From the IMG/VR virus record IMGVR_UViG_3300047548_001270, positions 1 to 30,499 of that record: a stretch of DNA of 30,499 bases, one strand, 5' to 3'. Within the stretch, counting starts at the first letter, position 1; every line of letters begins with the position of its first letter. Both the position numbers and the translations under genes were made by a program. The stretch is from a virus. Below the pieces are notes generated by a model. That model was not told the DNA's origin and ran no database searches. It saw only the letters and a list, made by a program, of their open reading frames with translations. Below are positions 22 to 30,042 of the stretch, in pieces.

Positions 22-477
22 ATGTCTAAAACTTGTTCAAAATGTAAATTACAAAAAAAAGTAATAGAATTCTCTAAAGATAAAGGCCAAAAAGATGGCT
101 TATATCCTAGTTGCAAGAATTGTAAAATATTATATGCTAAAACCAATAGAGTTCAAGAATTAAGAAGAAATTGGAGAATTGAAAATAAACAAAGAATGCG
201 TGAAAATAATTACAAAAAGAGTTACGGAACAACGATTAAAGATTATGATGAAATGCTTAAAAAACAAAAGGGTAAATGCAGTATATGTTTATCCACTGAA
301 ACTAAAAATAAAAATTACAGTTATTTTGCAGTAGATCATTGTCATAAAACTGGAAAAGTTAGAGGTTTACTTTGTGATAAGTGTAACACAGCCTTAGGTT
401 CTTTCCAAGATAGTCCTGAAATTTTACTTAGAGCAATAGAATATTTAAAAGAAAACATGGAAATACAAGATGAGTAG
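22..477 (+). CDS. HNH endonuclease, endonuclease VII-like, free-standing
   Basis: A 151-residue protein. An N-terminal zinc site (C5-x2-C8 and C31-x2-C34) is followed by a basic linker. The C-terminal half has the endonuclease VII/HNH signature: C86-x2-C89, then D105-H106-x-H108 and RGLLC118-x2-C121-N. Such proteins nick or cut DNA and often behave as mobile, intron-less homing endonucleases in phages. The ATG follows GGAGGCAG. The gene is visibly more AT-rich than its neighbours, as is usual for mobile nucleases. Its last 8 bases overlap the start of clpP, which suggests insertion just upstream of that gene. The same N-terminal zinc module recurs in the endonuclease at 30043. The family is clear; the target site is unknown. 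Confidence 0.88.
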   Translation: MSKTCSKCKLQKKVIEFSKDKGQKDGLYPSCKNCKILYAKTNRVQELRRNWRIENKQRMRENNYKKSYGTTIKDYDEMLKKQKGKCSICLSTETKNKNYSYFAVDHCHKTGKVRGLLCDKCNTALGSFQDSPEILLRAIEYLKENMEIQDE

Positions 478-1042
478 CTCTTCAAAAGATACTGTTTTTG
501 ACTTACTAATAGATCATGGAATTGATATTAGAGGTAGAATTTTATACTTACAAGGAGAAGTTGATGAAGATATGTATAATAAGTTTGTTAAGCTTCTTAA
601 GTATTTAGATAAAACAACTGGCGATATTGAAATAGTTTTAAATAGTTGTGGTGGATGTGTTACAAGTGGTTTTGCAATGTATGATGCTATAAAAGCATGT
701 AATAATCCAGTTACAATAAAATGTTATGGAGCAGTTATGTCTATAGCTTCTTTAATATTGCAAGCTGCTGATAAAAGAATAATTAGCGAAAACTGTCGTA
801 TGATGATTCATAGAGGTGAAACTGCTCTCGCTGGTGATTTCAATATTGTTAAGAAAGCTATGCAAGAAGAGATGGAACTTGATAGAATGCTTTGTGATGT
901 CTACTTTGATAGAATGACCGATAAGAACCCTGAATATAAAAGAGCTGCATTAGAAAAACTTATGGATACTGATTCATACTTTTCTGCCGAGAAAGCTCTA
1001 GAGCTTGGGCTGATAGATGAGATTGAAGGTGACGAAGCCTAA
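470..1042 (+). CDS. clpP: ClpP-like serine peptidase (copy 1)
   Basis: A 190-residue ClpP-fold protein, close to the mature length of bacterial ClpP. The catalytic triad is visible: S91 in GAVMSIAS, H114 in RMMIH, and D168 in the D-x3-SA context near the C-terminus. The oligomeric core strand RILYLQGEVDEDM is present. ClpP assembles as stacked heptamers and degrades polypeptides fed in by a Clp ATPase. The window also encodes ClpA, ClpS and a second ClpP. This copy is on the plus strand and translationally coupled to the HNH gene. Its 3' end overlaps a convergent micro-protein gene by 83 bases. It could be a host-like ClpP or a procapsid protease relative. The ClpA gene and the typical ClpP N-terminus favour the Clp role. 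Confidence 0.9.
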   Translation: MSSSSKDTVFDLLIDHGIDIRGRILYLQGEVDEDMYNKFVKLLKYLDKTTGDIEIVLNSCGGCVTSGFAMYDAIKACNNPVTIKCYGAVMSIASLILQAADKRIISENCRMMIHRGETALAGDFNIVKKAMQEEMELDRMLCDVYFDRMTDKNPEYKRAALEKLMDTDSYFSAEKALELGLIDEIEGDEA

Positions 1043-2085: not shown

Positions 2086-3093
2086 CTATTTCGCTCCTAG
2101 ACCAAGACCCATTTTATTAGTCTTGTTCTTTTCAAAGCGTTTACTAACTAAGGTCTTATGGTTGACCATTTTGTCAACTACATCTGCATAAGTTTGACCT
2201 TTCAAAATACTTCTTTTAACAACTTCAGCTAAGTGAGCAGGTGAAAAGTCTTTCGCCAACTTCAAAGCTTCTTTTTCTTCTACTGTACATGGTCTTTTAG
2301 AAATAAACTCAACTAGCTCAATTCTTTGTGCCTCTGTTGGTGGGTCTAATTCTATGTATTCATCGAATCGGCCAGGGCGATCAGCTAGAGCATCTAAGAG
2401 TGATCCTGGGTGATTTGTAGTAGCGATGATGAATGTTGGGATGGAAAAGGTATTATCAACACCATCTAGCAGGTTTAATAAGCTAGAATCGATACCTCTT
2501 TCTCTACCATTGTAATCTTCCTGTTCTCCGCCACCGATATCTTCGATAACTAGAACAAGGCGAGTACAGCCTTCTTTCTTGTAGTCAATACTTGCAAGGA
2601 ATCTGTTCGCATCTGAGCTTCTTATCTCAGAAGTTGGCCAGTTGATTGCAATAGTATTCTTATCTTCTTTAATTAAGTTCTCAATAGTTCTTGTAATAGC
2701 CGAAGTCTTCCCATATCCTGGAGGAGAATAGAGTAGGATTGCTCTCTTTTCTTCAACTTCAAGCTCTCTGTATTTCTCTAAGTGCTTAAAAAAGTTATCG
2801 GCTTCATTTAAGATCTTACTTGTATTGTCGTAAGATGTAAGGAGATTCTTATTCCTAAGCTCTAGATCACCAAGAATAATCTTAGAACCTTTTGTAGTGA
2901 TATTGTAAACACCAGGTTTAGCAATCACTTTGTCTTCATTTTTCTTTTCAGGTTCAACATATTTAAACTGAACGATCTTTGTGTCGTTCTTAACTAAGAG
3001 ATCAGACTCTTGAATTTCAGAGTCAACAGCAAGGTCTTCAATGTTAGTAACTTTAGTAACTACGAATTTACCTTCTTTAACTTCTTTACTCAT
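2086..3093 (-). CDS. AAA ATPase, classical clade (Vps4/Bcs1/SpoVK-like)
   Basis: A 335-residue protein. An unrecognised N-terminal region (about 1-110) precedes a single AAA module. Walker A is SPPGYGKT (about 123-130), Walker B VIED (182-185), sensor ATTN and arginine-finger region DRPGRF (238-243). The C-terminal helical lid ends in a small tail, MGLGLGAK. Classical AAA proteins remodel or unfold protein complexes as hexamers. The ATG at 3093 has GAGGG at the right distance and overlaps the upstream stop by 8 bases, so it is preferred over 3120. It is the third gene of a tightly overlapping operon with two unknown charged proteins, which may be substrates or adaptors. The exact family is uncertain. 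Confidence 0.82.
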   Translation of the reverse strand: MSKEVKEGKFVVTKVTNIEDLAVDSEIQESDLLVKNDTKIVQFKYVEPEKKNEDKVIAKPGVYNITTKGSKIILGDLELRNKNLLTSYDNTSKILNEADNFFKHLEKYRELEVEEKRAILLYSPPGYGKTSAITRTIENLIKEDKNTIAINWPTSEIRSSDANRFLASIDYKKEGCTRLVLVIEDIGGGEQEDYNGRERGIDSSLLNLLDGVDNTFSIPTFIIATTNHPGSLLDALADRPGRFDEYIELDPPTEAQRIELVEFISKRPCTVEEKEALKLAKDFSPAHLAEVVKRSILKGQTYADVVDKMVNHKTLVSKRFEKNKTNKMGLGLGAK

Positions 3094-3430
3094 TATCACC
3101 CTCGTCGTATGCGTGTCCAAATATTTCTTGAAAACTTTTCATTATTTGTCTGCTACTTTTACTTCTTCGTCTACCCTTGTTCACTAGGTCTTCTTCCATG
3201 GAAACAAGAGATACTTCTTCGTTAGCTTCATATTGCCTCTTACAAGTTCCGAAGTTAATACTAAGGTCATCATGTAGGTGGTGATCTGCCATAACATCTA
3301 CAGAAGTCACTCTACTTATGCTTTTATTAACACCATCTTTCCAACCTAGATCCTCAGATTCATCTATATCAACTACATCTGAATTGTAGACATGAAAATC
3401 AGGGTCTTGTCTAAGTTTAGTTCTTGGCAT
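3086..3430 (-). CDS. Hypothetical charged protein of the AAA operon
   Basis: About 114 residues and mixed charge: a basic start (MPRTKLRQ), an acidic early part (DVVDIDESED), a central His/Asp patch, and a basic stretch KGRRRSKSSR before the end. No domain is recognised and low structure is expected. The ATG at 3430 is preceded by GGGG nine bases upstream, which fits better than the TTG at 3442. It overlaps both neighbours and so is probably co-translated with the AAA ATPase. A role as an ATPase partner is inferred only from context. Confidence 0.65.
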   Translation of the reverse strand: MPRTKLRQDPDFHVYNSDVVDIDESEDLGWKDGVNKSISRVTSVDVMADHHLHDDLSINFGTCKRQYEANEEVSLVSMEEDLVNKGRRRSKSSRQIMKSFQEIFGHAYDEGDNE

Positions 3431-4451: not shown

Positions 4452-4739
4452 TTAATGCCCGTAAGTGAATTCCTTTTTCTCACGCTCAGTAACACAAGTG
4501 ATTTTAATTTGCTCTAATGGCAATATAGACCACTCATAATCTAATAGAATTAGAGTTTCCATGTCTACTCCCTTCTTAAAGGAAAAGTATAGGAATTCTG
4601 ATTTCTCTTGATCTCTAGTTGGACCTTCAGCTTCAGTTCGTGTAATGATCTTTTGCTCAATCAACCACATACAAATATCTGAATAAACATCGTTTATTTT
4701 AAGAAGTCTAGCAATGCAATCAATTCTTCTATTGTTCAT
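4452..4739 (-). CDS. Hypothetical protein
   Basis: A 95-residue protein with no recognised domain. The N-terminal half looks helical (RIDCIARLLKINDVYSDICMWLIEQ) and the C-terminal half is more strand-like. The ATG lies inside the last codons of the upstream micro-protein (TATGAACAATAG), so translation is probably coupled. It closes the ligase/micro-protein transcript. It lacks the TLxRF core, although the N-terminal half has a similar helical size. Confidence 0.6.
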   Translation of the reverse strand: MNNRRIDCIARLLKINDVYSDICMWLIEQKIITRTEAEGPTRDQEKSEFLYFSFKKGVDMETLILLDYEWSILPLEQIKITCVTEREKKEFTYGH

Positions 4740-4887
4740 AATACCTTTCTACTTGTAGTTTTCTTGGAAGCTTAAATACATAAGTCATTTTACAAATGTT
4801 AAATCTCCATAGAGTGTCCATGAAGCAAGCTACAGCCTCGCGCTGATTTACATTATTATATTGTCGTATGTAAGTTAGATTGTTCAT
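4729..4887 (-). CDS. TLxRF-family micro-protein
   Basis: A 52-residue protein read by hand in a stretch otherwise left empty. The ATG overlaps the upstream stop (ATGA). The core is FMDTLWRFNIC. The C-terminus is basic (KLPRKLQVERYYEQ). It is the fourth of four consecutive family members behind the DNA ligase. Function is unknown. Confidence 0.62.
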   Translation of the reverse strand: MNNLTYIRQYNNVNQREAVACFMDTLWRFNICKMTYVFKLPRKLQVERYYEQ

Positions 4888-5054
4888 TCTAAATCTCTAT
4901 AGGTTACATATACGTAATCACCATGCTCATTCTGACCTCTGCCTGTTCTGCAGTCAACTATCTTAAATCTAAAAATAGTATTCATCATTTCTATGAAAGC
5001 GTCGGCTTGTCTCCAACCTCTTACTCTCATCTGAAAGCTATTAATGCGGATCAT
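4884..5054 (-). CDS. TLxRF-family micro-protein
   Basis: A 56-residue protein with core MMNTIFRFKIV and a polar C-terminus. The ATG at 5054 has AAGGA at good spacing and overlaps the end of the upstream paralogue, so it is preferred over an upstream start at 5093. It is the third copy of the tandem array behind the DNA ligase. Function is unknown. Confidence 0.65.
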   Translation of the reverse strand: MIRINSFQMRVRGWRQADAFIEMMNTIFRFKIVDCRTGRGQNEHGDYVYVTYRDLE

Positions 5055-5232
5055 GAAATTCCTTTTCCCACTTAGCTGCAGCTTCTGGACCATCTATTAA
5101 AAGAACATGAAGCCTACATGCCCACCAATATCTAACAACTCTATTTACTAAACCAAACCTACAAAGAGTATATGCAAAATCATCACATATCTCAAAGCCT
5201 TTTTCTGTTCTTAGATAAGGATCAACTCTCAT
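5041..5232 (-). CDS. TLxRF-family micro-protein
   Basis: A 63-residue protein with core FAYTLCRFGLV. An aromatic pair (YWW) follows the core and the C-terminus is mixed-charge. The ATG overlaps the stop region of the preceding paralogue by 11 bases. It is the second copy in the tandem array. No domain is recognised. Confidence 0.65.
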   Translation of the reverse strand: MRVDPYLRTEKGFEICDDFAYTLCRFGLVNRVVRYWWACRLHVLLIDGPEAAAKWEKEFHDPH

Positions 5233-5392
5233 GTTTGTGATACTCCCTCATTTTGCAAGCAAGTGAAACATAAAAAGTACCATAATCTTGTTTAATAAGA
5301 CTAAATCTTATTAAAGTTCTATATAGATCAGCACAAACTTGATCTGAAAGTTGAACTCCATGATAGCATTGTTTCATTACACTAAGCTTCAT
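5222..5392 (-). CDS. TLxRF-family micro-protein
   Basis: A 56-residue protein found by reading the sequence after the DNA ligase. Its ATG overlaps the ligase stop codon (ATGA). The core is LYRTLIRFSLI. It is the first of four tandem paralogues, each overlapping the next. The arrangement predicts coupled translation from the ligase mRNA. Function is unknown. Confidence 0.65.
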   Translation of the reverse strand: MKLSVMKQCYHGVQLSDQVCADLYRTLIRFSLIKQDYGTFYVSLACKMREYHKHES

Positions 5393-6621
5393 TTGTCATC
5401 TCTAAACCGCATAAAGATAGGAAATCTCATGATTCCATCTGGTGTTAACTCTTGATACTTAGTTTCAATCTTTCTGCCTAAGAACTCAGCTTGATTATTC
5501 CACATGTAATCTCTATCTGCATCACTAAATCCAGAACCACAATCACATGCATTACCATTCTCTTGCTTCAAAACGAGGCCGCCCATCCTTCCCTCATGCT
5601 TCGTTCCAGCCTTACCCTCATAAAATCCAACAATCTCACAATCTTGTGAAACCATAGTTTTGAATTTCATAAGCGAATTCGCATTCCTACCTTTATAGTA
5701 AGGAATATCTGGAAGAACCATTACACCCTCGAATCCCAACCCAATGTAAGCAACTTCAAGGTCTTTTATCTCTTGTAAAGTTGTTACAAACTTCTGATCA
5801 ACAGGAACAATTACGTCTTTCTCGAAAAATATCTTAAGACCTGCCATCAGATTCATTCTTTCGCTTTTCTTCATTATAAACTTACCAGACTTCCACTCAC
5901 TTAGAGTTAGACAGTCAAATACGTTATATCTAACATCTCCAACTGTAGTGCCTCGCTTACTAGCGAATGCACTCTTCTGCATAGATTGAAAGTCATCTGA
6001 CATGATTTCACCATCTAGCACGCAACTCTTACCTACAAACGTATTTGCAAGTGACGCTGCTATGCTTGGGAAATTGGTAAATATAGAACCGTTTCTAGAA
6101 TAGAGAGTAACTTCTCCCTGATCAATTACAGCTAAACATCTATATCCATCAAACTTAGGTGAAGTATAAACGCCTGCTTTAATGATACTATCTAGTTTCT
6201 TACACTTCTTTCCATCAGTTGCAAGCATAACATCGAACGTAGGAATATTAAAGAACTTGGCTGCAGTTTCATCTGAAACTCCAATCTTCAAATCTTTCCT
6301 TAAGACCTTTGCATACCAATCCTGTTGATTATCAGAACATCTATTAAAGAAGTCTTCAACAAGAGCTTTAGCTGCGTGGCCTGTAATTTCTCTATTTTCT
6401 AATCTTTGGAGTAGAGACATGAACTCATCATGTAAGTCAACTTCTGTTGAGGCTTGTGATGATATGTCAAACTTATGAATATGGAATTTTCTAAAGAAGT
6501 TAAGTGAAGCATCTAATAGCTCACCTAATCTTTTATTTCCACTTGACTCCTCTAAAATGCTTCTTTTCTCGTTTTTCCCAGAGGCTCTTGAAACTCTCTG
6601 GAGTACGTCTAGTTCTATCAT
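5389..6621 (-). CDS. ATP-dependent DNA ligase
   Basis: A 410-residue ligase. An N-terminal helical region (1-150) is followed by the nucleotidyltransferase core. Motif I is KFDGYR (lysine adenylation site, about residue 154), then YSRNG, LDGE, FDCL, EGVMV and LMKFK. A C-terminal OB fold begins near DCEIVGFYEG. It seals nicks using ATP in phage replication and recombination. Length and order match viral ATP ligases of the T4/T7 type. It overlaps a micro-protein gene upstream and another downstream. Family assignment is firm; it is too diverged for a symbol. Confidence 0.93.
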   Translation of the reverse strand: MIELDVLQRVSRASGKNEKRSILEESSGNKRLGELLDASLNFFRKFHIHKFDISSQASTEVDLHDEFMSLLQRLENREITGHAAKALVEDFFNRCSDNQQDWYAKVLRKDLKIGVSDETAAKFFNIPTFDVMLATDGKKCKKLDSIIKAGVYTSPKFDGYRCLAVIDQGEVTLYSRNGSIFTNFPSIAASLANTFVGKSCVLDGEIMSDDFQSMQKSAFASKRGTTVGDVRYNVFDCLTLSEWKSGKFIMKKSERMNLMAGLKIFFEKDVIVPVDQKFVTTLQEIKDLEVAYIGLGFEGVMVLPDIPYYKGRNANSLMKFKTMVSQDCEIVGFYEGKAGTKHEGRMGGLVLKQENGNACDCGSGFSDADRDYMWNNQAEFLGRKIETKYQELTPDGIMRFPIFMRFRDDK

Positions 6622-6736
6622 TCCAATACTTCTCCAATTCTATACTAAAATCTACATAATTGTCTTCGTTTAATATACCCATGAATAAAAGAGTAACCAC
6701 AAAATGATCAACAACATCGCCCACGTTTCTGTGCAT
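6533..6736 (-). CDS. TLxRF-family micro-protein (diverged)
   Basis: About 67 residues from the ATG at 6736; a TTG at 6787 is an alternative. The core FVVTLLFMGIL keeps the T-L pair and hydrophobic spacing but lacks the arginine. The C-terminal 26 residues are very basic and overlap the ligase start in another frame by 89 bases. Family membership rests on core and context and is weaker than for most copies. Confidence 0.5.
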   Translation of the reverse strand: MHRNVGDVVDHFVVTLLFMGILNEDNYVDFSIELEKYWNDRTRRTPESFKSLWEKREKKHFRGVKWK

Positions 6737-6764
6737 TCTTAATATTTGAGGTAATGACTGAACA

Positions 6765-7547
6765 TTATTTAACACTAAACAGTCCAAGTGTTGGTGCCAT
6801 CATAGATAGTTCACCTTGAATTCTAGAGTTAATTCCAACTACTTCACCATCGCTATTGATAACTGGTCCACCGGACATACCAGGAACAATCATAGATTCT
6901 CCTGTGTAATAAACTCCATATTGACCTATTGCTCTAAAGTCAATACATGTCGCTGGAGACATTCCATTTGCAAAGCCACAGCTTCTTAACATATCGCCAG
7001 ATTTAACTGTAAAATCAGTTCTAACTATCAACTTATTAAACTTCCTAAAATCACCATAAATAAATCCAAAATCTCTACTCGAGTCAGCATCTGCTGCCAT
7101 AGCTACAACTGCAGTATCATTACCATATACATCAAAAACTCTATACATAGTAGGTCTTTCTGTTTTTTGAAGTAATTCTAAGTATTTATTTTTAGCTATA
7201 ACTAATTTAGTTAATTCACCAATTTCTTCATCGCACGTATCTTTATAACATTGAATTTTTAAATTCTCAATATCTGCCTTAATATCTTCAATTTCTTTTG
7301 GAAGTTTTTCAATTGCTTTTGCCATATCTTCTTTAAGAAACTTAGCTGAGAACTGCATACAATGTGCTGCTGTTACTGCAATTTGATCTGATATTACAAA
7401 TGCTGAACAAGAACTTGTGGGTGTTCTTTTAATATTGATTATAGCATTATATTGACCATTGGTAGCTGGCTTGATATCATAATTATTAGTTGAAGAGCAG
7501 CTTGCCATCATCATCAGGAGAAGTAGGGATAAAAGAACTCGTTTCAT
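6765..7547 (-). CDS. Trypsin-like serine protease lipoprotein
   Basis: A 260-residue protein. The start is a lipoprotein signal peptide (MKRVLLSLLLLMMMAS-C17), then a trypsin/HtrA-like domain. Visible triad: H62 in TAAHC, D159 in SSRDFGF and S225 in GMSGGP, followed by VVGIN. A charged, probably coiled-coil insertion (about 66-128) separates His and Asp. The mature enzyme would be anchored in the inner or outer membrane facing the periplasm or outside. The ATG at 7547 has GGAG at the right distance and puts the signal at the N-terminus, so it is preferred over 7619. An exported protease is rare in a phage; it could act on envelope proteins or in superinfection exclusion (inference). Confidence 0.85.
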   Translation of the reverse strand: MKRVLLSLLLLMMMASCSSTNNYDIKPATNGQYNAIINIKRTPTSSCSAFVISDQIAVTAAHCMQFSAKFLKEDMAKAIEKLPKEIEDIKADIENLKIQCYKDTCDEEIGELTKLVIAKNKYLELLQKTERPTMYRVFDVYGNDTAVVAMAADADSSRDFGFIYGDFRKFNKLIVRTDFTVKSGDMLRSCGFANGMSPATCIDFRAIGQYGVYYTGESMIVPGMSGGPVINSDGEVVGINSRIQGELSMMAPTLGLFSVK

Positions 7548-7767
7548 ATTTGAACTCCATTTCAGCTTCACGCAAGACAATGTTTTTAGCTCTAATGAGC
7601 ACTTCCTGCTGCGTTTCATTATTATCTGGACTAGAATACATTATCTCTAAGCAAGACAATATATCTCTAGTTTTAAGATCTTTCTTCTTAAGACTGTTAA
7701 TAACATCATAAGCCCTTGAATTCTCATATCTTACTTGCTTATCAATATATTTCTGTAATCCTAACAT
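7486..7767 (-). CDS. Hypothetical protein upstream of the protease
   Basis: A 93-residue helical, charged protein with no recognised domain. The ATG follows AAGGAT. A -10-like TTATAAAT lies just upstream in a divergent promoter region shared with the sigma-like gene. Its last 62 bases overlap the protease start in another frame, and its C-terminus there (TSPDDDGKLLFN) is probably unconstrained. It is the first gene of the protease/ligase transcript. Confidence 0.6.
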   Translation of the reverse strand: MLGLQKYIDKQVRYENSRAYDVINSLKKKDLKTRDILSCLEIMYSSPDNNETQQEVLIRAKNIVLREAEMEFKYETSSFIPTSPDDDGKLLFN

Positions 7768-7816: not shown

Positions 7817-8188
7817 ATGGCAAACGAAAAGAAGACAGAAAGAGATCACCTAAACGACATGCTCATCGAGTATGCTCCACTTATTAACATGCATGTAAAT
7901 AAGCTTAGAGACAACTTACCCCCACATATTGATCACGAAGATCTTTATGCGGCTGGAATGCATGGTCTAATTGATGCTCTTCATAAATATGACCCTAAAA
8001 AGGGTGCTGCTTTTAATACGTATGCTTCTAAGCGTATCAACGGTAAAATGCTAGATCATATCACTGCACCAACCGCTAGTTCTGTAGATAACTTTCATTA
8101 CAAACAAGCTAAAGAGTTTATGTCTAAACAACCTAAACCTGAAATGGCTCCAGTTACAACTACAACATTTCCAAAGAAAGAAGAGTAA
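7817..8188 (+). CDS. Sigma-28-like protein, region 2 only
   Basis: A 123-residue protein. Residues about 15-80 match sigma-70 family region 2 of the FliA/sigma-28 type: LINMHVNKLRD, then DLYAAGMHGLIDALHKYDPKKGAAFNTYASKRINGKMLDHI, where the last part is the core-binding/-10 helix pair. Regions 3 and 4 are absent; the tail is Thr/Pro/Lys-rich. It may be a minimal phage sigma that directs host polymerase to phage promoters, or a decoy occupying the core enzyme. It is on the plus strand in a minus-strand block, with an extended -10 placed so that the leader is only about 3 bases. Its 3' end abuts a convergent gene. Confidence 0.8.
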   Translation: MANEKKTERDHLNDMLIEYAPLINMHVNKLRDNLPPHIDHEDLYAAGMHGLIDALHKYDPKKGAAFNTYASKRINGKMLDHITAPTASSVDNFHYKQAKEFMSKQPKPEMAPVTTTTFPKKEE

Positions 8189-8595: not shown

Positions 8596-9294
8596 TTATT
8601 TCTTCTTTGATTTCTTCTTCGATTCGGTTTTCTTTTTAACTGGCTTCTTTGTAGCTTTAACTAAGTCATTTAATAGACCTTTAGCAATCGCCATTGATCC
8701 AGTTTTATCTTCAATCACAATAGGCTTCTTTGAAGGAAGAACTTCTACTGAATAAGATACGGATGGTCTAACCAATGGGAGACCAATAAAATCAATCAAG
8801 CCAATATTCTTAGCTTGTTGAGCGGTAAGATATAAATCTCTACCTTCGTTTTCTTTAATAATTGCTTTTAATTGTTCATACGACATACCACATCTTGCTG
8901 CGATAAGGTCCATGATCTGACGATTAATACGCTCATGTTCTTTAGCGTCTGTCTTAATATCATCTGCATGTCCTACAGCTCCACCAGAAGCCTCATGAAT
9001 CATAATACGAGCATCTGAGTCACAGAATCTAATATCACCTAAGGAAAGAAGTGCTGCACCTGCAGACATAGCTTTACCTTGACATACAGTGATAAATGTA
9101 TTAGGAACGCTTTTCATAATTGAAAGCATTGTGTTAAAGCTATCTACATATCCACCGTATGAATCAATAGTAACTACTATTGGCATACTAGGATCAACAG
9201 ATGCGAGTCTATTTACTTTCTTTCTAAAATCTTTGACAGATTCTTCTGTAAACTTATTAACGACTATCTCATGGTCTTCGAGTTCTTCTCTCAT
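8596..9294 (-). CDS. clpP: ClpP-like serine peptidase (copy 2)
   Basis: A 232-residue ClpP-fold protein. Triad: S77 in GKAMSAGAA, H100 in RIMIH and D153 in GRDLYLTA. The substrate-cleft segment DSYGGYV is conserved. After the fold (about residue 172) comes a 60-residue extension ending in a very basic tail (TESKKKSKKK). The N-terminus is short, with no obvious axial-loop region, unlike copy 1. It may form a mixed ring with copy 1 or be an independent peptidase; both carry full triads. The ATG follows AGGAG. A structured leader precedes it, and copy b of the repeated element lies within its 3' end. Confidence 0.88.
   Translation of the reverse strand: MREELEDHEIVVNKFTEESVKDFRKKVNRLASVDPSMPIVVTIDSYGGYVDSFNTMLSIMKSVPNTFITVCQGKAMSAGAALLSLGDIRFCDSDARIMIHEASGGAVGHADDIKTDAKEHERINRQIMDLIAARCGMSYEQLKAIIKENEGRDLYLTAQQAKNIGLIDFIGLPLVRPSVSYSVEVLPSKKPIVIEDKTGSMAIAKGLLNDLVKATKKPVKKKTESKKKSKKK
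8618..8629 (-). promoter_or_regulatory. Repeated element AACCGAATCGAA (copy b)
   Basis: This copy lies inside the C-terminal Lys-rich codons of clpP copy 2 (reading K-T-E-S-K) and ends 33 bases before the next minus-strand start at 8584. Its presence within coding sequence suggests selection for the DNA element and not only for the protein. The promoter role is inferred. Confidence 0.5.
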
Positions 9295-10558: not shown

Positions 10559-10869
10559 CTTGCACCTAATTCTTGTAATACTTTTCTAATTTCTTTTACT
10601 TCTTCTTTGTTATTAAAGAAGTAAAGAACAGTCTTGTCTTGTTTAATAGCTACAGTTTCGTCATCATGATCAAACATAACATTGAAACTATTAAATGTTT
10701 GGCTTGCTTTATGTGGAACCAAACTACCGACAACAAAGAATTGATCACTATTAAAGTCTGTTCTATCACCATTGTTGAATGCATGAGTTTGAGAAAGAAT
10801 CTTTTCCTTCGCTAGATCAAGCATTGTTTTAGGTGTAGGAAAGAAGTAATTAAGTATTCTTTGAATCAT
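10555..10869 (-). CDS. Hypothetical protein
   Basis: A 104-residue soluble protein with an aromatic start (MIQRILNYFFPTPKT) and a mixed alpha/beta pattern (QFFVVGSL, FNSFNVMFDHDDETVAIKQDKTVLYFF). No family is recognised. The ATG at 10869 has AGAGGA at good spacing and overlaps the upstream stop (ATGA), so longer starts are rejected. Confidence 0.65.
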   Translation of the reverse strand: MIQRILNYFFPTPKTMLDLAKEKILSQTHAFNNGDRTDFNSDQFFVVGSLVPHKASQTFNSFNVMFDHDDETVAIKQDKTVLYFFNNKEEVKEIRKVLQELGAR

Positions 10870-11168
10870 CTGGTCCTCTCTTTTAAAATACCTTTCATTT
10901 TTGCGTAATCCATCATATAAACACATAGTGTTTCATCTGTAATATAACCAGATTGTCCATTATAAACATAGTTACATGCCATTGAGAATCCACCACCAGC
11001 AGAAGTTACTTCTGTAAGTGCATCCATTCTAGAGTAAGCATTGGGAACTGTTCCATGCTTCAACTCTAAATGATGACCTAAGTTAGCGTGAGCTGCATAT
11101 CTAAGGAACTTTAAGTCTTCTTTGACTTCCTCGATACTCTCATTGTTTGCTATAGTTATTGTTTCCAA
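10866..11168 (-). CDS. Hypothetical protein, TTG start
   Basis: A 100-residue protein: an acidic helical N-terminus, then a Gly-rich middle (TSAGGGFSMACNYVYNGQSGY) and a helical end. No domain is recognised. No ATG fits; a TTG at 11168 has GGAGG seven bases upstream, inside the last codons of thyX. Coupled translation with thyX is likely. A link to thymidylate metabolism is not shown. Confidence 0.6.
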   Translation of the reverse strand: METITIANNESIEEVKEDLKFLRYAAHANLGHHLELKHGTVPNAYSRMDALTEVTSAGGGFSMACNYVYNGQSGYITDETLCVYMMDYAKMKGILKERTR

Positions 11169-12569: not shown

Positions 12570-12974
12570 TTATTTTTGAAACAATATCCACTTAATCCCA
12601 ACACCATTCTCATTGGGGAATCTATTGATGTTAGTATAGACACAATCTAAGCAATGACCACTTCGGTGCTTTGCATAGAGAATAAAGCTCTTATTAAGAT
12701 GAATATTAAGAATAGGTTCAAGCTCTACATACCTGAATTGTTTTTCATCTATCTTAGAATTAACTGTAGTATCTAAATCTACAAATTTTAAGATTTGATA
12801 GTTAAAGTGTAGTCCTAGTTCACCCTTCTTCTTTTCTTGATATTCAAAGCTTCTATTTGTGCCTACTGCTTCTTCATATCTAAGGTCTAACTGTTTAAGT
12901 TCAGCGGTATGAGCTGAAGTTAGAAGCATCGACACCATTAATGGTAGTAACAACAAACTCTTTATCCTCTGCAT
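12570..12974 (-). CDS. Exported hypothetical protein, possibly outer-membrane
   Basis: A 134-residue protein. Residues 1-23 form a signal peptide ending at SAHTA. The mature part is rich in alternating strands (LDLRYEEAVG, GELGLHFNYQI, RYVELEPILNIHL, SFILYAKH), as in a small beta-barrel or cell-envelope protein, and ends with an aromatic residue two before the end (FQK). Two cysteines are close together (HCLDC). It starts inside the preceding micro-protein. It may alter the host surface (inference). Confidence 0.6.
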   Translation of the reverse strand: MQRIKSLLLLPLMVSMLLTSAHTAELKQLDLRYEEAVGTNRSFEYQEKKKGELGLHFNYQILKFVDLDTTVNSKIDEKQFRYVELEPILNIHLNKSFILYAKHRSGHCLDCVYTNINRFPNENGVGIKWILFQK

Positions 12975-13137
12975 CTCTTATCTCCCTAACTGCTACTTTA
13001 AATAAGTAATTCTCTTCTTTAAAAGCTCCAGCCCATTTTTCTTTAATAATCTTAAATCTCTTTAAGGTTTGACAGAGTCTACCTGAAACCCTTACAGCTT
13101 TAGTATTATTGATCTGTGACGCTTTGTAACCTATCAT
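12901..13137 (-). CDS. TLxRF-family micro-protein
   Basis: A 78-residue protein with core LCQTLKRFKII, then an aromatic KWAGAF and a charged end. The ATG follows AGAGGTAG. Its last 74 bases overlap the signal-peptide codons of the next gene in another frame, so the C-terminal 24 residues are probably unconstrained. Function is unknown. Confidence 0.65.
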   Translation of the reverse strand: MIGYKASQINNTKAVRVSGRLCQTLKRFKIIKEKWAGAFKEENYLFKVAVREIRDAEDKEFVVTTINGVDASNFSSYR

Positions 13138-13300
13138 CTACCTCTTTCTCCATAACTTGGCCAATGTATTCACCAGCAGATATTGAAAACTTAAACTTTT
13201 CACCTAATATTTTTTCTATTGTGCGAAATAATTTCACTGTAGTCTTATAAGTATCTGTTACTGTATAAGTTCGTATATTATCTTGCTTAAATTTGATCAC
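13106..13300 (-). CDS. Hypothetical small protein, GTG start
   Basis: A 64-residue basic protein following clpA. The likely start is GTG at 13300, overlapping the clpA stop region by 14 bases, with AGAGG about 12 bases upstream. A T-V-K-L-F segment faintly resembles the TLxRF core but the spacing does not fit, so I do not count it in that family. Function is unknown. Confidence 0.5.
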   Translation of the reverse strand: MIKFKQDNIRTYTVTDTYKTTVKLFRTIEKILGEKFKFSISAGEYIGQVMEKEVDDRLQSVTDQ

Positions 13301-15584
13301 TTCCAGTTGTTACCTCTTCTGGTTTAACTTCTGCTTTAGGTGGCTTTGTAACTTCATACTTAGGAACACCATCAACGATCTTAAATGTAATAGTATCTAA
13401 CTCTTTAATTTCACCTTTAAGAATAGGTTTAACTAATGGCATATCAATATACTTCTTAACTGTTCTAGCAATTGGTCTAGCGCCCATAAGTGGATCATAA
13501 CCTTCTGCACTAATAAAGTCCTTAACTTCTTGTGTAACTACTAAGTTAAAATTCTTCTTCATAAACAACTTATTAATGCTTTGAAGGATGAATTTATCGG
13601 TAATCTTATCGATTACAGACTTATCTAACGAGTTAAAATGAACAATACCAGATAGCTTATTTCTAAATTCTGGTGCAAAAGTGGAATTAATGATCTCAGA
13701 TTTAACCTCGTGTTTAATATGTGCTACTTGTTCTTCTTTAGAATTAAGACCTAAAGGCTTCTTAACTCTTGCCGCTACTGCAGCTCCAGCATTAGAAGTC
13801 ATAAGGACTAATACATTTCTAAAATCTACTTTATTTCCTTCGCCGTCTGTCATAGAACCACCATCGATGATTCCCAGTAAAGCTTCACGAACTTTCTCAT
13901 GTGCTTTCTCAATCTCATCTAAAAGCAAGACTGTATGCGGATACTTGGTAATCTCATTTGTTAAGATACCACCTTCTTTGTGCCCTTCATAACCTGGAGG
14001 AGCACCAAATAGCTTCGCAGCTGAATGCTTTTCACCATATTCACCCATGTTAATTACCATGAAGTGAGACTCTGTGTGCTTAGCTAATTGCTTAGCAAGC
14101 TCTGTCTTACCTGTACCTGTAGGTCCAAGTAATAGAAAGCTACCAATAGGTTGACCATCGTCACCTAAACCGGCTTTATTCAATTCGTAAGCTTCAACAA
14201 CCTTCTCGATTGCTTCTTCTTGGCCGAATAATTCCCCTTTAATGATCTTTTCTAAATCTACATAGGAATTCTTGCCTGTCTTCTTTTTAAACGCAGAAAC
14301 AGGTGTTCCTGTGATTTTAGATACAATCTCTTCGACATCCGACACTGCCGCCGTGCGTCGCGTAGATGAATCATCTGTTCTTAATCTTGCCCCAACAGAG
14401 TCGATCAAGCTTATCGCTTTATCTGGAAAGTATTGAGTGGTAATATATTTACCAGACAATTCAACTGCAGCTTCTAATACTGCTTTAGGATATTTAACTT
14501 TATGGTACTTTTCAAGAACAGGCTTAACACCTTGCTCTAAGATACGTAAAGTTTCTGCTGCACTTGGTTCTTCAATCTTTACTTGCTGAAGACGTCTAGC
14601 AAAAGCTTTATCTTTAGAGATGTGCTTTTTATATTCGTCATCAGTTGTAGCACCGATTAAGCTCAACTCTCCACTTGCAAGCATTGGCTTAATAATGTTA
14701 CTCATATCCGGAGCACCAGGACCTTGTCCAGCAGCTCCAGCTCCCATAACCTGATGAAGTTCATCTACGAACAACACTGGTTGAATGAGACCTTCTTTTG
14801 TCATCATCTTAATGTCTTCTAGTAAGTCTTGAAGTCTTTGTTCAAAATCACCACGGAATTTAGTTCCACCGATCAATCTACTTACTTCTAATGAGAAAAT
14901 CTTAACATTCTTAATTGCTTCAGGTACTTGACCTGATTCAATAAGGGAAGCTAAACCTTCAACAACCTGAGTCTTACCAACTCCTGGAGGACCAACTAAT
15001 ACTGGATTTTTCTTTTTATGGTGAGCTAAGATTTCAACCATACGTTGAACTTCATCTCGTCTACCAATAAGAGGATCAATCTTTCTATTCTTTGCTTTCT
15101 CATTTAAATCATCGCAAAGCTTATATAATTCCTTATATTTACCTTTAGATTTAATGCCAGCATTTGGATTATGTTTGTATCCACTTGATTCTAAATGAAA
15201 GATTGTTTGACTATCTTTAACATTTGTTACAACATATAAACTATTGATAAAGTCTTCAAAGAACATATCTCTTTGCTCTTTACCTGCTGTCTTCTTAACA
15301 TCTTCAATTGTCTTCTTGAAGCTTGGAGTTAAAGCTGCTCCATTGTTTCCGAGCATTCTAGAGAACTGCTCATGAGCTAAAAGATCTGGTTCTTCTTTAA
15401 GAACTTGAGCTTCTAATAGAAGTTCTAATTTATCAATATCACAACCTCTAGAAGCTAGAAACTGTTGATTCTCTAGGTGATCATCATTGATACAAAAAAG
15501 AACGAACTTAGAAACGGAAAGAGTCAAAGACTTCTGCGAAGTAATTGCGCCCATAATAGTATCATCAGTAATTCGATTACTCAT
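13287..15584 (-). CDS. clpA: ClpA-type AAA+ unfoldase
   Basis: 765 residues against about 758 in E. coli. N-domain (1-140, the ClpS docking region), then two AAA+ modules. D1: Walker A GPPGVGKT (198-205), Walker B LFVDE (271-275), pore loop KFRGD (242-246), arginine finger R330/R331. D2: Walker A GPTGTGKT (487-494), Walker B LLLDE (553-557), sensor-2 GAR (701-703). There is no ClpB/ClpC-type middle domain. LGL at 611-613 aligns with the IGL/IGF loop that docks on ClpP. The D2 pore loop reads GYEG instead of the usual GYVG. It unfolds proteins and feeds them to ClpP. It overlaps nothing upstream; its AGGAG spans the clpS stop, so the two are co-translated. Confidence 0.95.
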   Translation of the reverse strand: MSNRITDDTIMGAITSQKSLTLSVSKFVLFCINDDHLENQQFLASRGCDIDKLELLLEAQVLKEEPDLLAHEQFSRMLGNNGAALTPSFKKTIEDVKKTAGKEQRDMFFEDFINSLYVVTNVKDSQTIFHLESSGYKHNPNAGIKSKGKYKELYKLCDDLNEKAKNRKIDPLIGRRDEVQRMVEILAHHKKKNPVLVGPPGVGKTQVVEGLASLIESGQVPEAIKNVKIFSLEVSRLIGGTKFRGDFEQRLQDLLEDIKMMTKEGLIQPVLFVDELHQVMGAGAAGQGPGAPDMSNIIKPMLASGELSLIGATTDDEYKKHISKDKAFARRLQQVKIEEPSAAETLRILEQGVKPVLEKYHKVKYPKAVLEAAVELSGKYITTQYFPDKAISLIDSVGARLRTDDSSTRRTAAVSDVEEIVSKITGTPVSAFKKKTGKNSYVDLEKIIKGELFGQEEAIEKVVEAYELNKAGLGDDGQPIGSFLLLGPTGTGKTELAKQLAKHTESHFMVINMGEYGEKHSAAKLFGAPPGYEGHKEGGILTNEITKYPHTVLLLDEIEKAHEKVREALLGIIDGGSMTDGEGNKVDFRNVLVLMTSNAGAAVAARVKKPLGLNSKEEQVAHIKHEVKSEIINSTFAPEFRNKLSGIVHFNSLDKSVIDKITDKFILQSINKLFMKKNFNLVVTQEVKDFISAEGYDPLMGARPIARTVKKYIDMPLVKPILKGEIKELDTITFKIVDGVPKYEVTKPPKAEVKPEEVTTGSDQI

Positions 15585-15592
15585 TCGTTCTC

Positions 15593-15928
15593 CTATGCTT
15601 CTTCTAATGTGAACTTTAAAACTGTAATTGCTTGAACTCTATTTGGAAAACATGATATTAAATATTGTTTTGCAAGGTCAACTGTAGCTAATTTACTTTC
15701 TGCTATCTCTCTAGAGTATGTACCACATACACCACGCTTCTCAGTGTTTACAATATGAGCCAGCTTTTCTGCTTCTAATTCTGTCTTTTCAAAACATCTA
15801 GAAACAATAAAGATAACTTCTTCAAACGATGTATGAGGATTGTCATGTATAATTACATTATAATTGACAGGTTCTTTCAATTTAACCTTTTCAATTACCG
15901 CAATGTCTTCTTGAATTTTCGTTGACAT
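15593..15928 (-). CDS. clpS: ClpS N-degron adaptor
   Basis: A 111-residue protein. After a short flexible N-terminus (1-20), residues 23-71 align without gaps with E. coli ClpS 28-76 (YxVI..., VCG, then AE-x-K). ClpS binds N-terminal degron residues and delivers the substrate to the ClpA N-domain. The E. coli degron contacts N34, D35, H66 and M40 correspond here to D29, N30, N61 and F35, so specificity is probably altered. It lies directly upstream of clpA. Copy c of the repeated element lies 28 bases before its ATG, and GAGGGATGG serves as ribosome binding site. A phage ClpS is unusual. Confidence 0.88.
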   Translation of the reverse strand: MSTKIQEDIAVIEKVKLKEPVNYNVIIHDNPHTSFEEVIFIVSRCFEKTELEAEKLAHIVNTEKRGVCGTYSREIAESKLATVDLAKQYLISCFPNRVQAITVLKFTLEEA

Positions 15929-15968: not shown

Positions 15969-16116
15969 ATTCGTCTAGAGCGTCTTTGAGTAGAAAAGCT
16001 AGATCGTTTGATTTGTTTACGAAGTCGTTACCTGAAATGATATGAAATCTTCTTAGTGTAAGAAGTAGGCTTAATGTGTATAAATAACTATTTAATGCTT
16101 TATCTTTTTTATTCAT
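15967..16116 (-). CDS. TLxRF-family micro-protein
   Basis: A 49-residue protein found by hand between the structured RNA and clpS. The core is LLLTLRRFHII, preceded by a second Leu-rich turn (YLYTLSL) and followed by an acidic end. There is no obvious ribosome binding site: AGGC lies eight bases before the ATG. It begins 18 bases after the U-run of the RNA. Function is unknown. Confidence 0.6.
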   Translation of the reverse strand: MNKKDKALNSYLYTLSLLLTLRRFHIISGNDFVNKSNDLAFLLKDALDE

Positions 16117-16124
16117 GTATGCCT

Positions 16125-17815: not shown

Positions 17816-17968
17816 TTAAATGTCATTATAGTTATATCCGTCACTTTGTCTAGAAATATCAACGTAGATATCGCTTCCATATTTAGTCTTGAATTTCCAG
17901 CGTTCCCACTGATCAAGTCTATTTGTACAATACCATTTAAGTAATAGAATAAAAAGTTTATCCAACAT
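17816..17968 (-). CDS. Hypothetical small protein
   Basis: A 50-residue protein read by hand. The start is hydrophobic (MLDKLFILLLKWYC), then WERWKFKTKYG and an acidic end. The ATG overlaps the upstream stop (TAATG), so it is coupled to the membrane protein before it. It ends four bases before the tRNA. Function is unknown. Confidence 0.5.
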   Translation of the reverse strand: MLDKLFILLLKWYCTNRLDQWERWKFKTKYGSDIYVDISRQSDGYNYNDI

Positions 17969-18117
17969 TACTCGTCCTTAATCTTCTTATCTAACTTATC
18001 AAAATGATCTTTAACTATTAGAAGAATAGGTACAATAAGAGCCAATATGGCAAATGGAGTCAATACTGTAAGTACACATATTGCAACAGTTGTCCAACAG
18101 ATAGCTTCAACATCCAT
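17968..18117 (-). CDS. Small membrane protein
   Basis: A 49-residue protein read by hand. A long hydrophobic stretch (about residues 6-36, one or two membrane helices) ends in a charged tail (DHFDKLDKKIKDE). TTGGAG precedes the ATG at good spacing, and copy d of the repeated element ends 30 bases before it. It could be a membrane regulator or holin-like protein; this is inferred only from composition. Confidence 0.55.
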   Translation of the reverse strand: MDVEAICWTTVAICVLTVLTPFAILALIVPILLIVKDHFDKLDKKIKDE

Positions 18118-18147
18118 AATTTTCTCCAAAAATAATCTCAAAATATT

Positions 18148-18159
18148 ATCGATTCGGTT
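18148..18159 (-). promoter_or_regulatory. Repeated element AACCGAATCGAT (copy d)
   Basis: On the minus strand this reads AACCGAATCGATAA, ending 30 bases before the ATG at 18117. The tail CGATAA equals the end of the sigma-28 -10 consensus GCCGATAA. It lies back to back with the nrdB promoter; TCGATT and AATCGA also form an inverted repeat across 18149-18173. Confidence 0.6.
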
Positions 18160-18182
18160 GCTATTTTAATCGAACGTTCTGG

Positions 18183-24542: not shown

Positions 24543-24777
24543 CGAATTTCGTTGGTTTATCTAATTTTAATGGATACTTTTTCATTAATGGTACAGTGAC
24601 CAATAAAAGAGGTGGAATACAAATACTCACTGCAAACAATATAAGTCTACCTACTTGCATAGTATTTGGGTATATCTTTCTAACTCTTGCTTCTAAGGCA
24701 GAATATTCATGCAATACCTCACATGACTTATGGTCTGTAACCTTAAGAACGTAAGTTTTTCCTACTTCTAGTTTCAT
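24532..24777 (-). CDS. Small membrane-anchored protein
   Basis: An 81-residue protein. A soluble, strand-rich N-terminal part (KTYVLKVTDHKSCEVLHEY) is followed by a hydrophobic segment at about 43-63 (LILFAVSICIPPLLLVTVPL) and a basic end. The ATG overlaps the stop of the preceding micro-protein and follows GGTGG. No family is recognised. Confidence 0.62.
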   Translation of the reverse strand: MKLEVGKTYVLKVTDHKSCEVLHEYSALEARVRKIYPNTMQVGRLILFAVSICIPPLLLVTVPLMKKYPLKLDKPTKFGVK

Positions 24778-24965
24778 TTAATCCACCCATTTTCTATACA
24801 TCTTTCGACATATTCTTTGCACTCAAATAATCCAAAGTATCTTTTTGTATCTAAATTAAAGTTATCTATTTGATCTCTACACTTTATAATGCCAAATCTC
24901 ATTAAAGTATGTCCAAAATTTTTAACGTATAGAACTCTTTTAACTAAACTAAGTGGCTTACTCAA
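24774..24965 (-). CDS. TLxRF-family micro-protein, TTG start
   Basis: A 63-residue protein with core FGHTLMRFGII. A TTG at 24965 (AGAAGG about nine bases upstream) is the only sensible start and lies within the last codons of the upstream gene. Its N-terminus is basic (KPLSLVKRVLYVKN). Function is unknown; a single dispersed copy of the family. Confidence 0.62.
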   Translation of the reverse strand: MSKPLSLVKRVLYVKNFGHTLMRFGIIKCRDQIDNFNLDTKRYFGLFECKEYVERCIENGWIK

Positions 24966-25173
24966 GGAACATGCCTTCTGTTATTTTGTTCTCTAAGATG
25001 TTCTTTTGAGCTATAAGCTTTAGCATCTCTTTCTTCTTCATCTCTTTATATTTGTAATCTCTGATATTTACATCATTAATTAAAATATTACAATGGTTGA
25101 TCTTCTTCACCACTTCCAACAATTCCTGCTCCAGATGACTCATCTGAATTGCTTTTATCGTGTCCATCGCCAC
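24958..25173 (-). CDS. Hypothetical coiled-coil protein, GTG start
   Basis: A 71-residue helical protein (LEQELLEVVKKINHCNIL, then EMKKKEMLKLIAQKNILENKI) with coiled-coil character. The GTG at 25173 has a perfect AGGAGG six bases upstream, better placed than for the ATG at 25167. It begins 86 bases inside the upstream gene in another frame. Confidence 0.6.
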   Translation of the reverse strand: MAMDTIKAIQMSHLEQELLEVVKKINHCNILINDVNIRDYKYKEMKKKEMLKLIAQKNILENKITEGMFLE

Positions 25174-25999: not shown

Positions 26000-26165
26000 T
26001 CTTTACCTTCTTTCTGTCATACTTCGTTTTATCTTTAATAACTTTTGTCGGTCTCGGAAGCATTCTTGGAACTCTTAATGCTAAATACATCGATAGACAA
26101 GTTGTGCACTCATGTTTAGGTTTCCCCTTGCCCTTGTATTTTGGATGCTTCATACATTTTTTCAT
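25986..26165 (-). CDS. Small Cys/His/Lys protein, probable zinc site
   Basis: A 59-residue protein read by hand. CMKHPKYKGKGKPKHECTTCL has the order C-x2-H...C-x2-C of a zinc knuckle, and the rest is very basic. I recall small phage proteins with a similar C-x-H-P-K-Y and C-x2-C arrangement, without known function. The ATG lies inside the upstream micro-protein gene. Confidence 0.6.
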   Translation of the reverse strand: MKKCMKHPKYKGKGKPKHECTTCLSMYLALRVPRMLPRPTKVIKDKTKYDRKKVKNDDY

Positions 26166-26355
26166 GATACTTCCTACTTACATCATCTAATCTTTCAACT
26201 GCGGCTGACCAACCTGAATAAGCTTCTAAAGGTAATTTCCAAACTCTAAATCTACCCAAAGTTCTAAGTAGTTCATCTACTACATAATAGGTTTCCACAT
26301 GAGATTTATTATTATCTAAAATTTCTTTAACTCTTAGGTCTGTCTTTCTCGTCAT
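26116..26355 (-). CDS. TLxRF-family micro-protein
   Basis: About 79 residues with core LLRTLGRFRVW, then a Trp-containing middle (YSGWSAAVERL). AGAAGG is six bases before the ATG at 26355; an ATG at 26361 is less well spaced. The last 50 bases overlap the following small zinc gene, so the C-terminus is probably unconstrained. Function is unknown. Confidence 0.65.
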   Translation of the reverse strand: MTRKTDLRVKEILDNNKSHVETYYVVDELLRTLGRFRVWKLPLEAYSGWSAAVERLDDVSRKYHEKMYEASKIQGQGET

Positions 26356-26482
26356 TGACATCCTTCTTTTTCAACTTTGAAAGCTCATATAATCCCCATA
26401 TTATGAAACCACCAGGAACTATTGCCGCAATAACTAACTTAGCTATTGGCGATTGTCCCAGTTTTTCCAGAGTCTTCTTCAT
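26327..26482 (-). CDS. Small single-helix membrane protein
   Basis: A 51-residue protein read by hand: a basic start (MKKTLEKLGQ), a hydrophobic helix (LVIAAIVPGGFIIWGLY), then a charged tail (LKKKDVNDEKDRPKS). It overlaps the genes on both sides in other frames. AAAGAG lies before the ATG. The topology suggests an inner-membrane protein. Confidence 0.55.
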   Translation of the reverse strand: MKKTLEKLGQSPIAKLVIAAIVPGGFIIWGLYELSKLKKKDVNDEKDRPKS

Positions 26483-29878: not shown

Positions 29879-30012
29879 TAATCTTCTTGGCGTTGGCGGT
29901 GGAACATGTCTACGGTGAGTCTATCTATGAGTGTATCTAGTGTGTGAAAGTCTATTATCTTGAAGCGATATAGAGTTCTTAATAAGTGAGCTCTGATTTG
30001 TTCTGGTTCCAT
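29878..30012 (-). CDS. TLxRF-family micro-protein
   Basis: A 44-residue protein, the shortest copy, with core LLRTLYRFKII. The N-terminus is acidic (MEPEQ) and the C-terminus mixed (MFHRQRQED). A -10-like TATAAC lies 7 bases before the ATG at 30012 with no ribosome binding site, so a leaderless mRNA is possible. A much longer upstream frame is rejected. Because it is so short, it is probably close to the minimal family unit. Confidence 0.62.
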   Translation of the reverse strand: MEPEQIRAHLLRTLYRFKIIDFHTLDTLIDRLTVDMFHRQRQED

Positions 30013-30030
30013 TATATAGGTTATACTAAG

Positions 30031-30036
30031 TATAAT
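30031..30036 (+). promoter_or_regulatory. -10 element giving a leaderless start
   Basis: TATAAT (preceded by AAG) with six bases between it and the ATG at 30043, so the predicted first base is the A of the ATG. The region 30020-30036 also contains TTATAC and GTATAA as an inverted repeat shared with the divergent micro-protein promoter. Confidence 0.5.
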
Positions 30037-30042
30037 ATACTT

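Follow-up and report, generated by a model that had tools for sequence, protein, structure and literature searches.

The closest described counterparts of the locus reported here are the ClpAPS protease of bacteria such as E. coli and the Clp proteins of jumbo phages, that is, phages with genomes over 200 kb. In the portions that deal with Clp genes, the 2018 description of Atu_ph07 credits the phage with seven Clp proteins, including ClpA, ClpP, ClpS, ClpX and ClpB (PMC6102473), and a 2021 jumbo-phage survey records ClpP, ClpS, ClpA and ClpX, suggesting a role for ClpS in target delivery to host ClpAP and proposing a translocase or virion-assembly role for phage ClpA (PMC7824862). The gene list of a 2025 paper places ClpA among the common 'moraphage' genes, with a separate prohead protease (PMC12619734). 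PHROGs likewise holds phage families for ClpA (4871) and ClpS (27368 and 15940). Our locus lies in an IMG/VR virus fragment of 30,499 bases (IMGVR_UViG_3300047548_001270, hereafter the window), in which adjacent clpS and clpA genes and two genes for ClpP-fold proteins, clpP1 and clpP2, all fall within 15.5 kb (Table 1). A first-pass annotation had taken an adaptor plus unfoldase in a phage to be undescribed; the reports above correct this, as the parts are known in jumbo phages. What is new is the operon with co-altered ClpS and ClpA. Among the open-licence PMC papers listed by full-text search, none describes a clpS-clpA operon in a phage or tests a ClpAPS of phage origin, which is weak evidence of absence.

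With bacterial ClpAPS the locus shares the clpS-clpA gene order, the ClpS fold, a two-ring ClpA with a docking loop and a predicted ClpA-type N-domain. It differs in that the N-degron residues of ClpS are replaced, the HE...EH motif of ClpA is lost, the D2 arginine-finger column holds Lys, the pore loop reads GYEG and no canonical ClpP is present in the fragment. With the Clp set of Atu_ph07 and RaK2-like phages (PHROG 4871, 27368 and 15940) it has in common a phage ClpA, a ClpS and ClpP-fold proteins. In those phages, however, clpS and clpA lie far apart, and the window ClpA falls outside the jumbo-phage ClpA clade.

The TAG stop of clpS forms part of the sequence TAGGAG, 8 nucleotides upstream of the clpA ATG. 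An identical overlap of stop codon and ribosome-binding site is found in L172, a 19.6-kb contig collinear with the window that carries clpS (70% identity), clpA (82%) and clpP2 (75%); it is of the same lineage as the window. The adjacency and the placement of the clpA ribosome-binding site across the clpS stop, both noted at first pass, are thus repeated in a second virus. The ratio of non-synonymous to synonymous substitution rates between the two is ~0.14 for clpA and ~0.16 for clpP2, and for clpS the proportions of non-synonymous and synonymous differences are 0.19 and 0.79, with synonymous sites saturated. Because of this strong constraint, clpS-clpA and clpP2 are not chance open reading frames (ORFs). 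L172 ends before the position of clpP1, so its conservation evidence covers clpS, clpA and clpP2, and of the four genes that the first-pass annotation proposed to look for in related phages, these three are present in it. A further contig, L002/L173, is a twin of the window whose compared proteins are identical and therefore adds no independent evidence; contig L294 encodes a ClpP2 identical to that of the window. No relative was found for ClpP1 among viral contigs or for the window ClpS among bacterial genomes.

The adaptor belongs to the ClpS family (4e-15 and 55.8 bits against PF02617, cut-off 23) and matches Caulobacter ClpS 3dnj in phmmer (5.5e-9). In E. coli ClpS, residues D35, D36 and H66 bind the N-degron and their change to alanine weakens binding, according to the part of PMC9810338 that concerns them. 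At E. coli positions 34, 35, 36 and 66 the window ClpS carries D, N, P and N, and the L172 ClpS D, N, P and H. Position 34 is included since we take N34 to be a further N-degron residue; none of the four recognition residues is kept in the window protein. Such replacement is uncommon: among 89 aligned ClpS rows, which include three window or twin rows and four bacterial rows, N34 is found in 82, D35 in 84 and H66 in 84, and a bacterial sample has N, D, D and H in 80 of 80 cases (one of the two scan patterns behind it favours NDD). Pocket changes do recur among jumbo phages, as the ClpS proteins of XbC2 (D-N-P), G010 (Y-N-P) and Atu_ph07 (D-D-Q, with E at 66) are also altered.

Judging from these alignments, the N-degron pocket of ClpS is rewritten in this lineage, a new feature. 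The pocket segment (residues 19-50) is identical at 29 of 32 positions between the window and L172, which makes it the best-kept part of a protein that averages 70%. That the segment is non-standard and yet best conserved is consistent with a new binding preference rather than decay; an altered pocket under constraint suggests other substrates, and the N-degron label for this ClpS appears in doubt. Equivalents of E79 and K84, which we presume to be ClpA-contact residues, are retained. Searches of the open-licence literature brought up no paper on E23/E28 and E79/K84 as contacts between ClpS and ClpA.

ClpA contains both AAA modules as well as the ClpB_D2-small and AAA_lid_9 domains, and matches PHROG 4871 at 8.8e-202; against the NCBIfam equivalog TIGR02639 it scores 647 bits, below the cut-off of 993. 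It was aligned, together with the L172 protein, to 37 of 79 full-length ClpA ORFs (alignment A4). The LGL motif that the first-pass annotation had placed at the ClpP-docking position is confirmed at residues 611-613, in the column where the 37 other ClpAs have IGF, IGL, LGF, VGF or LGM, and the loop glycine is invariant across all 39. ClpA IGL loops dock into ClpP clefts, as stated in the relevant portion of PMC9663308. The same annotation's claim that both ATPase sites are kept holds for Walker A and Walker B, which are intact in both modules, and not for the D2 arginine-finger column and pore loop. In the column that we take to be the D2 arginine finger, presumably equivalent to ClpB R756, the window (Lys643) and L172 have Lys. 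Arg occupies this column in every one of the 37 other ClpAs of the alignment and in 62 of 62 ClpAs from bacteria. The D2 pore loop reads GYEG in the same two proteins versus GYVG in the other aligned ClpAs. In ClpB, arginine fingers are essential and R756 is the AAA-2 finger, as given in the passage of PMC5319980 on these residues.

These motor changes bear on an explanation in which ClpS-ClpA is a non-degrading unfoldase or virion-assembly chaperone and no ClpP is involved. Beyond the altered D2 residues, it draws on the translocase and virion-assembly roles proposed for phage ClpA in the Clp section of PMC7824862 and on the genomes of PA5oct, Atu_ph07 and Phosso, where clpA adjoins or lies close to dnaJ-like genes and, in PA5oct, also adjoins structural genes. 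We judge it unlikely: the docking-loop glycine shows no exception in the alignment, and in the window the clpS-clpA pair is surrounded by genes of nucleotide metabolism, none of its neighbours being recognised as structural.

The N-terminal part of ClpA is diverged. At the columns of H22, E28 and H29, which belong to the HE...EH motif, the window and L172 have S, S and K, whereas the other 37 ClpAs have H in 36, E or D in 37 and H in 37, respectively, and the Pfam Clp_N model does not match the window ClpA N-terminus. Structure prediction gave a mean predicted local distance difference test (pLDDT) of 80.4 for full ClpA, for which most rows of the VIA list span residues 150-749 only, and a pLDDT of 79.5 with a predicted template modelling (TM) score of 0.72 for the N-domain. 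The best folds for the latter were the ClpA N-domains 1k6k and 1ksf (VIA Z 13.1-13.2, root-mean-square deviation 3.0 over 131 residues), followed by a ClpB N-domain (Z 12.1) and ClpC N-domains (Z ~9). Against 1k6k the model reached TM 0.65, probability 1.00 and E 0.008, and a Foldseek search returned no match at E <= 0.001. In a FastTree phylogeny, all sampled ClpAs of bacteria and jumbo phages form one clade (0.999), and the window and L172 ClpAs sit outside it on a long branch. The tree took every second of 62 full bacterial ClpAs; its bacterial side consists of ClpA adjoining clpS, with ClpB/C-like outgroups and no broad sample of ClpC/ClpE. The pair thus appears to form its own deep branch, with long-branch attraction possible.

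ClpP1 and ClpP2 both have complete Ser-His-Asp triads, as first annotated. We scored their ability to receive a Clp unfoldase as the number of hydrophobic residues at ten positions that we take, from E. coli ClpP, to form the docking cleft, mapped via an Acinetobacter ClpP and applied to 38 ClpP-fold proteins. In this comparison HMP_ERICV was represented by residues 1-230 and a third RaK2 ClpP match (3.8e-5) was left outside. The Acinetobacter reference scores 9 of 10, phage ClpPs with stronger Pfam scores and an N-terminal segment 7-10, and a second, weaker-scoring set of phage ClpP-fold proteins 6-7. ClpP1 scores 4, ClpP2 3 and the L172 ClpP2 4, together with LR756511 (4), L296 (3), L297 (3) and Mx1 (4); a pair of head maturation proteases whose genes adjoin portal genes score 1 and 3. 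ClpP1 has 22 residues before strand 1, ClpP2 has 6 and the reference 34, counts that are approximate since some fetched ClpPs were started at their first Met, which shortened G005_L197 and Phosso_L200. The stop-to-stop frames of the window ClpPs allow at most 7 and at most 10 extra codons, so a full N-terminal axial segment is not possible in either.

The first-pass annotation had combined the four genes into an independent N-degron protease, in which ClpS delivers to ClpA and ClpA to a ring of ClpP1, ClpP2 or both, and had itself named the lack of a ClpA docking cleft as the first observation that would speak against it. At the sequence level most of that cleft is missing in both ClpPs. The clustering of the genes, the intact triads and the retained LGL loop fit such a self-contained protease, as does the co-occurrence of clpP2 and clpSA in L172, and the partner of a diverged ClpA could itself have diverged. 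Since neither ClpP has the axial segment and both have lost most hydrophobic cleft positions, it nevertheless looks decidedly unlikely. The changed N-degron residues of ClpS weigh in the same direction, and the records with ClpP2 homologues, L296, L297 (a 10-kb fragment) and LR756511, revealed no ClpS or comparable ClpA.

What the two peptidases do instead may differ between them. ClpP1 clusters with two head maturation proteases (0.92) and shares their lost cleft; its best NCBIfam model is NF045542 (ClpP-related head maturation protease) at 103.9 bits, under the cut-off of 120. Unlike the head maturation proteases of this type (PHROG 94, NF045542), it has no recognised portal or capsid gene nearby in the 30-kb fragment, near whose end clpP1 lies. 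A role of ClpP1 as a virion protease is possible on these grounds. The start of clpP1 shares 8 nucleotides with an ORF at 22-477 (+) that, judged by eye, resembles an HNH-type endonuclease. ClpP2 forms a clade with LR756511, L296 and L297 (0.90), huge-phage proteins with the same cleft loss and an intact triad, from which the window and L172 ClpP2 differ by a long basic C-terminal tail. In L296 and L297 the clpP2 homologue directly follows a ribonucleotide reductase gene (named by eye). An S77 prohead protease was found in 15 of 20 records, including those of L296 and LR756511; none was found in the window or L172 fragments, and the terminase profile PF03237 also had no match in the 30.5-kb window. 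Because its homologues are linked to ribonucleotide reductase and longer records hold a separate S77 prohead protease, ClpP2 is unlikely to be a head protease. The alternative that both ClpPs are virion proteases is consequently possible for ClpP1 and unlikely for ClpP2.

The account we favour, with about even confidence, is a dedicated ClpS-ClpA pair that works with another ClpP on altered substrates, ClpP1 and ClpP2 acting alone. The two proteins would be made in coupled fashion from one operon. ClpS would bind a set of proteins through a pocket no longer of the standard N-degron type and pass them to its own ClpA with the diverged N-domain, which would thread them, docked through LGL, into a ClpP barrel other than ClpP1 or ClpP2. 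This partner could be supplied by the host, or it could be a canonical ClpP of the phage itself, with its gene in a part of the incomplete genome beyond the window, as in several jumbo phages; canonical ClpPs were indeed found in other jumbo phages having ClpA and ClpS. As a result, the phage would decide which proteins, its own or those of the host, a ClpP peptidase degrades. On its own, ClpP1 would be a head-maturation-type protease and ClpP2 a peptidase of the replication and nucleotide gene region. The use of another ClpP is the simplest account because the docking loop is kept while the local ClpPs are without the receiving cleft, and the account is supported by the retention of operon and ribosome-binding-site overlap in two viruses at 70% (ClpS) and 82% (ClpA) identity, by the constraint on clpA and by the predicted ClpA-type fold of the N-domain.

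Several points weigh against it. No canonical ClpP was seen in the 30-kb window. D2, the ClpP-proximal ring, may be a weak motor, given the Lys at the arginine-finger column and the Glu in the pore loop, and the ClpS-docking mode of E. coli is not transferable with the HE...EH motif lost. The assignment of a ClpA-type over a ClpB-type N-domain is a narrow call on the model, whose alignment held other ClpA N-domains and so favoured this outcome. In a tentative extension, which we regard as somewhat unlikely, ClpS and ClpA would have changed together into a private channel in which ClpS reads a non-standard signal and serves only its own ClpA, and this ClpA seizes host ClpP and directs it at proteins normally spared by the host.

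To place the operon, we examined 25 records picked from ClpA, ClpS or ClpP search matches, a choice biased towards positives. ClpA, ClpS and ClpP occur together in 18 of them (17 with ClpS above the Pfam cut-off), including all eight isolated jumbo phages, where the XaC1 ClpS is weak. Where a record has both clpS and clpA, the genes are at least ~17 kb apart in 18 of 19 cases, the exception being L172. Among the matches listed, 2 of 80 IMG/VR ClpS loci have clpA in the fetched stretch (L002 and L093) and 2 of 80 ClpA loci have clpS (L013 and L014); in bacteria, clpA lies within 600 bp in 69 of 80 ClpS loci. From these counts, the clpS-clpA order follows the bacterial pattern and is seldom met in phages.

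That bacterial norm is the argument for a clpS-clpA operon recently acquired from a host and simply adding to host proteolysis, the least probable of the explanations considered here. ClpS and ClpA are both remodelled, and a recent host origin is rejected on the position of ClpA in the tree, on its long branch outside the sampled clade. An old capture of a host operon is possible, as is long-branch attraction in the tree. The locus counts also bear on a scenario in which the chief target of ClpS is host ClpA, to be reprogrammed or occupied, with only a secondary part for the phage ClpA. An action on host ClpAP has been proposed for stand-alone phage ClpS (PMC7824862, in its Clp section), and 78 of the 80 IMG/VR ClpS loci, among the matches listed, have no clpA in the fetched stretch. 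For the window we give this scenario little credence, as clpS is translation-coupled to its own diverged clpA.

Other candidate clpSA operons were rejected as phage operons. L004, filed as 'Acinetobacter phage MD-2021a', has bacterial chromosome genes around the pair; L004 and L212, both recorded under this name, carry the bacterial housekeeping genes clpS, clpA, argC, tig, clpP and clpX, and appear to be stretches of host chromosome entered under a phage name. L013 and L014 encode an enterobacterial ClpA, and L014 lies beside a prophage, an integrase-bearing element that by eye directly adjoins clpA. L093 has bacterial genes and a clpA cut by a Mu-like prophage, whose end lies inside the gene (6396-7517 and onward, by eye).

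Two further features of the ClpS survey are recorded here. In 20 of 80 IMG/VR ClpS loci clpS is preceded, at a distance of ~6 kb, by a ClpP gene of the same orientation, some on contigs that are near copies (L098, L103, L104, L108, L117, L118, L120, L122, L126, L129, L130, L133, L142, L144, L149, L150, L153, L154, L157 and L162). Gln occupies the M40 gatekeeper position in 33 of the 89 aligned ClpS rows and in many ClpS proteins from these loci.

Table 1. Clp features of the window, with coordinates and strand.
Feature	Position	Strand	Product or content	Basis
clpS	15593-15928	(-)	111-aa ClpS adaptor	Pfam PF02617 and pocket alignment
clpA	13287-15584	(-)	765-aa two-ring AAA+ unfoldase	Pfam, PHROG 4871, E. 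coli ClpA alignment
ClpA N-terminal domain (residues 1-146)	15147-15584	(-)	Clp_N fold by prediction	
clpS stop / clpA ribosome-binding site overlap	15585-15595	(-)	TAGGAG then clpA ATG	
clpP2	8596-9294	(-)	ClpP-fold serine peptidase	Pfam PF00574 1.2e-30
clpP1	470-1042	(+)	ClpP-fold serine peptidase	Pfam PF00574 7.6e-33

Other genes of the window were also annotated. Small proteins sharing a TLxRFxII core form an expanded family: a profile built from 6 members matches 15 ORFs at E < 0.01, 12 of them in the window and 3 in L172, and the best match among five shuffled-ORF sets had E 0.078. The window members, all on the (-) strand, lie at 963-1226, 1204-1392, 1352-1525, 4732-4896, 4887-5093, 5044-5247, 5225-5395, 12904-13137, 15970-16122, 24777-24980, 26119-26370 and 29881-30183, and those of L172 at 1495-1707, 10774-11004 and 17941-18174. 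A 123-aa protein at 7817-8188 (+), with its counterpart at 14732-15112 (-) in L172 (79% identical), matches sigma-70 region 2 only (PF04542, 6.2e-11); region 4 was not recognised, and the protein is a sigma-like fragment. An AAA ATPase at 2086-3120 (-) has IetA models as its best PADLOC matches (7.5e-14), with no subtilisin partner noticed. A trypsin-like protease at 6765-7619 (-), with a lipoprotein-like signal sequence by eye, is fast evolving, at 40% identity to its L172 counterpart.

Taken with the wider sample, the cleft comparison indicates that the phage annotation 'ClpP' spans at least two classes, one able to offer Clp unfoldases a docking cleft and one lacking it. ClpA, ClpS and ClpP are frequent in jumbo phages, and our literature search found no functional test of them. 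The lineage of the window joins adaptor and unfoldase in one coupled operon, with residues for substrate choice and motor coupling altered, and this operon is a compact system in which the re-aiming of an ATP-dependent protease by a virus could be tested.

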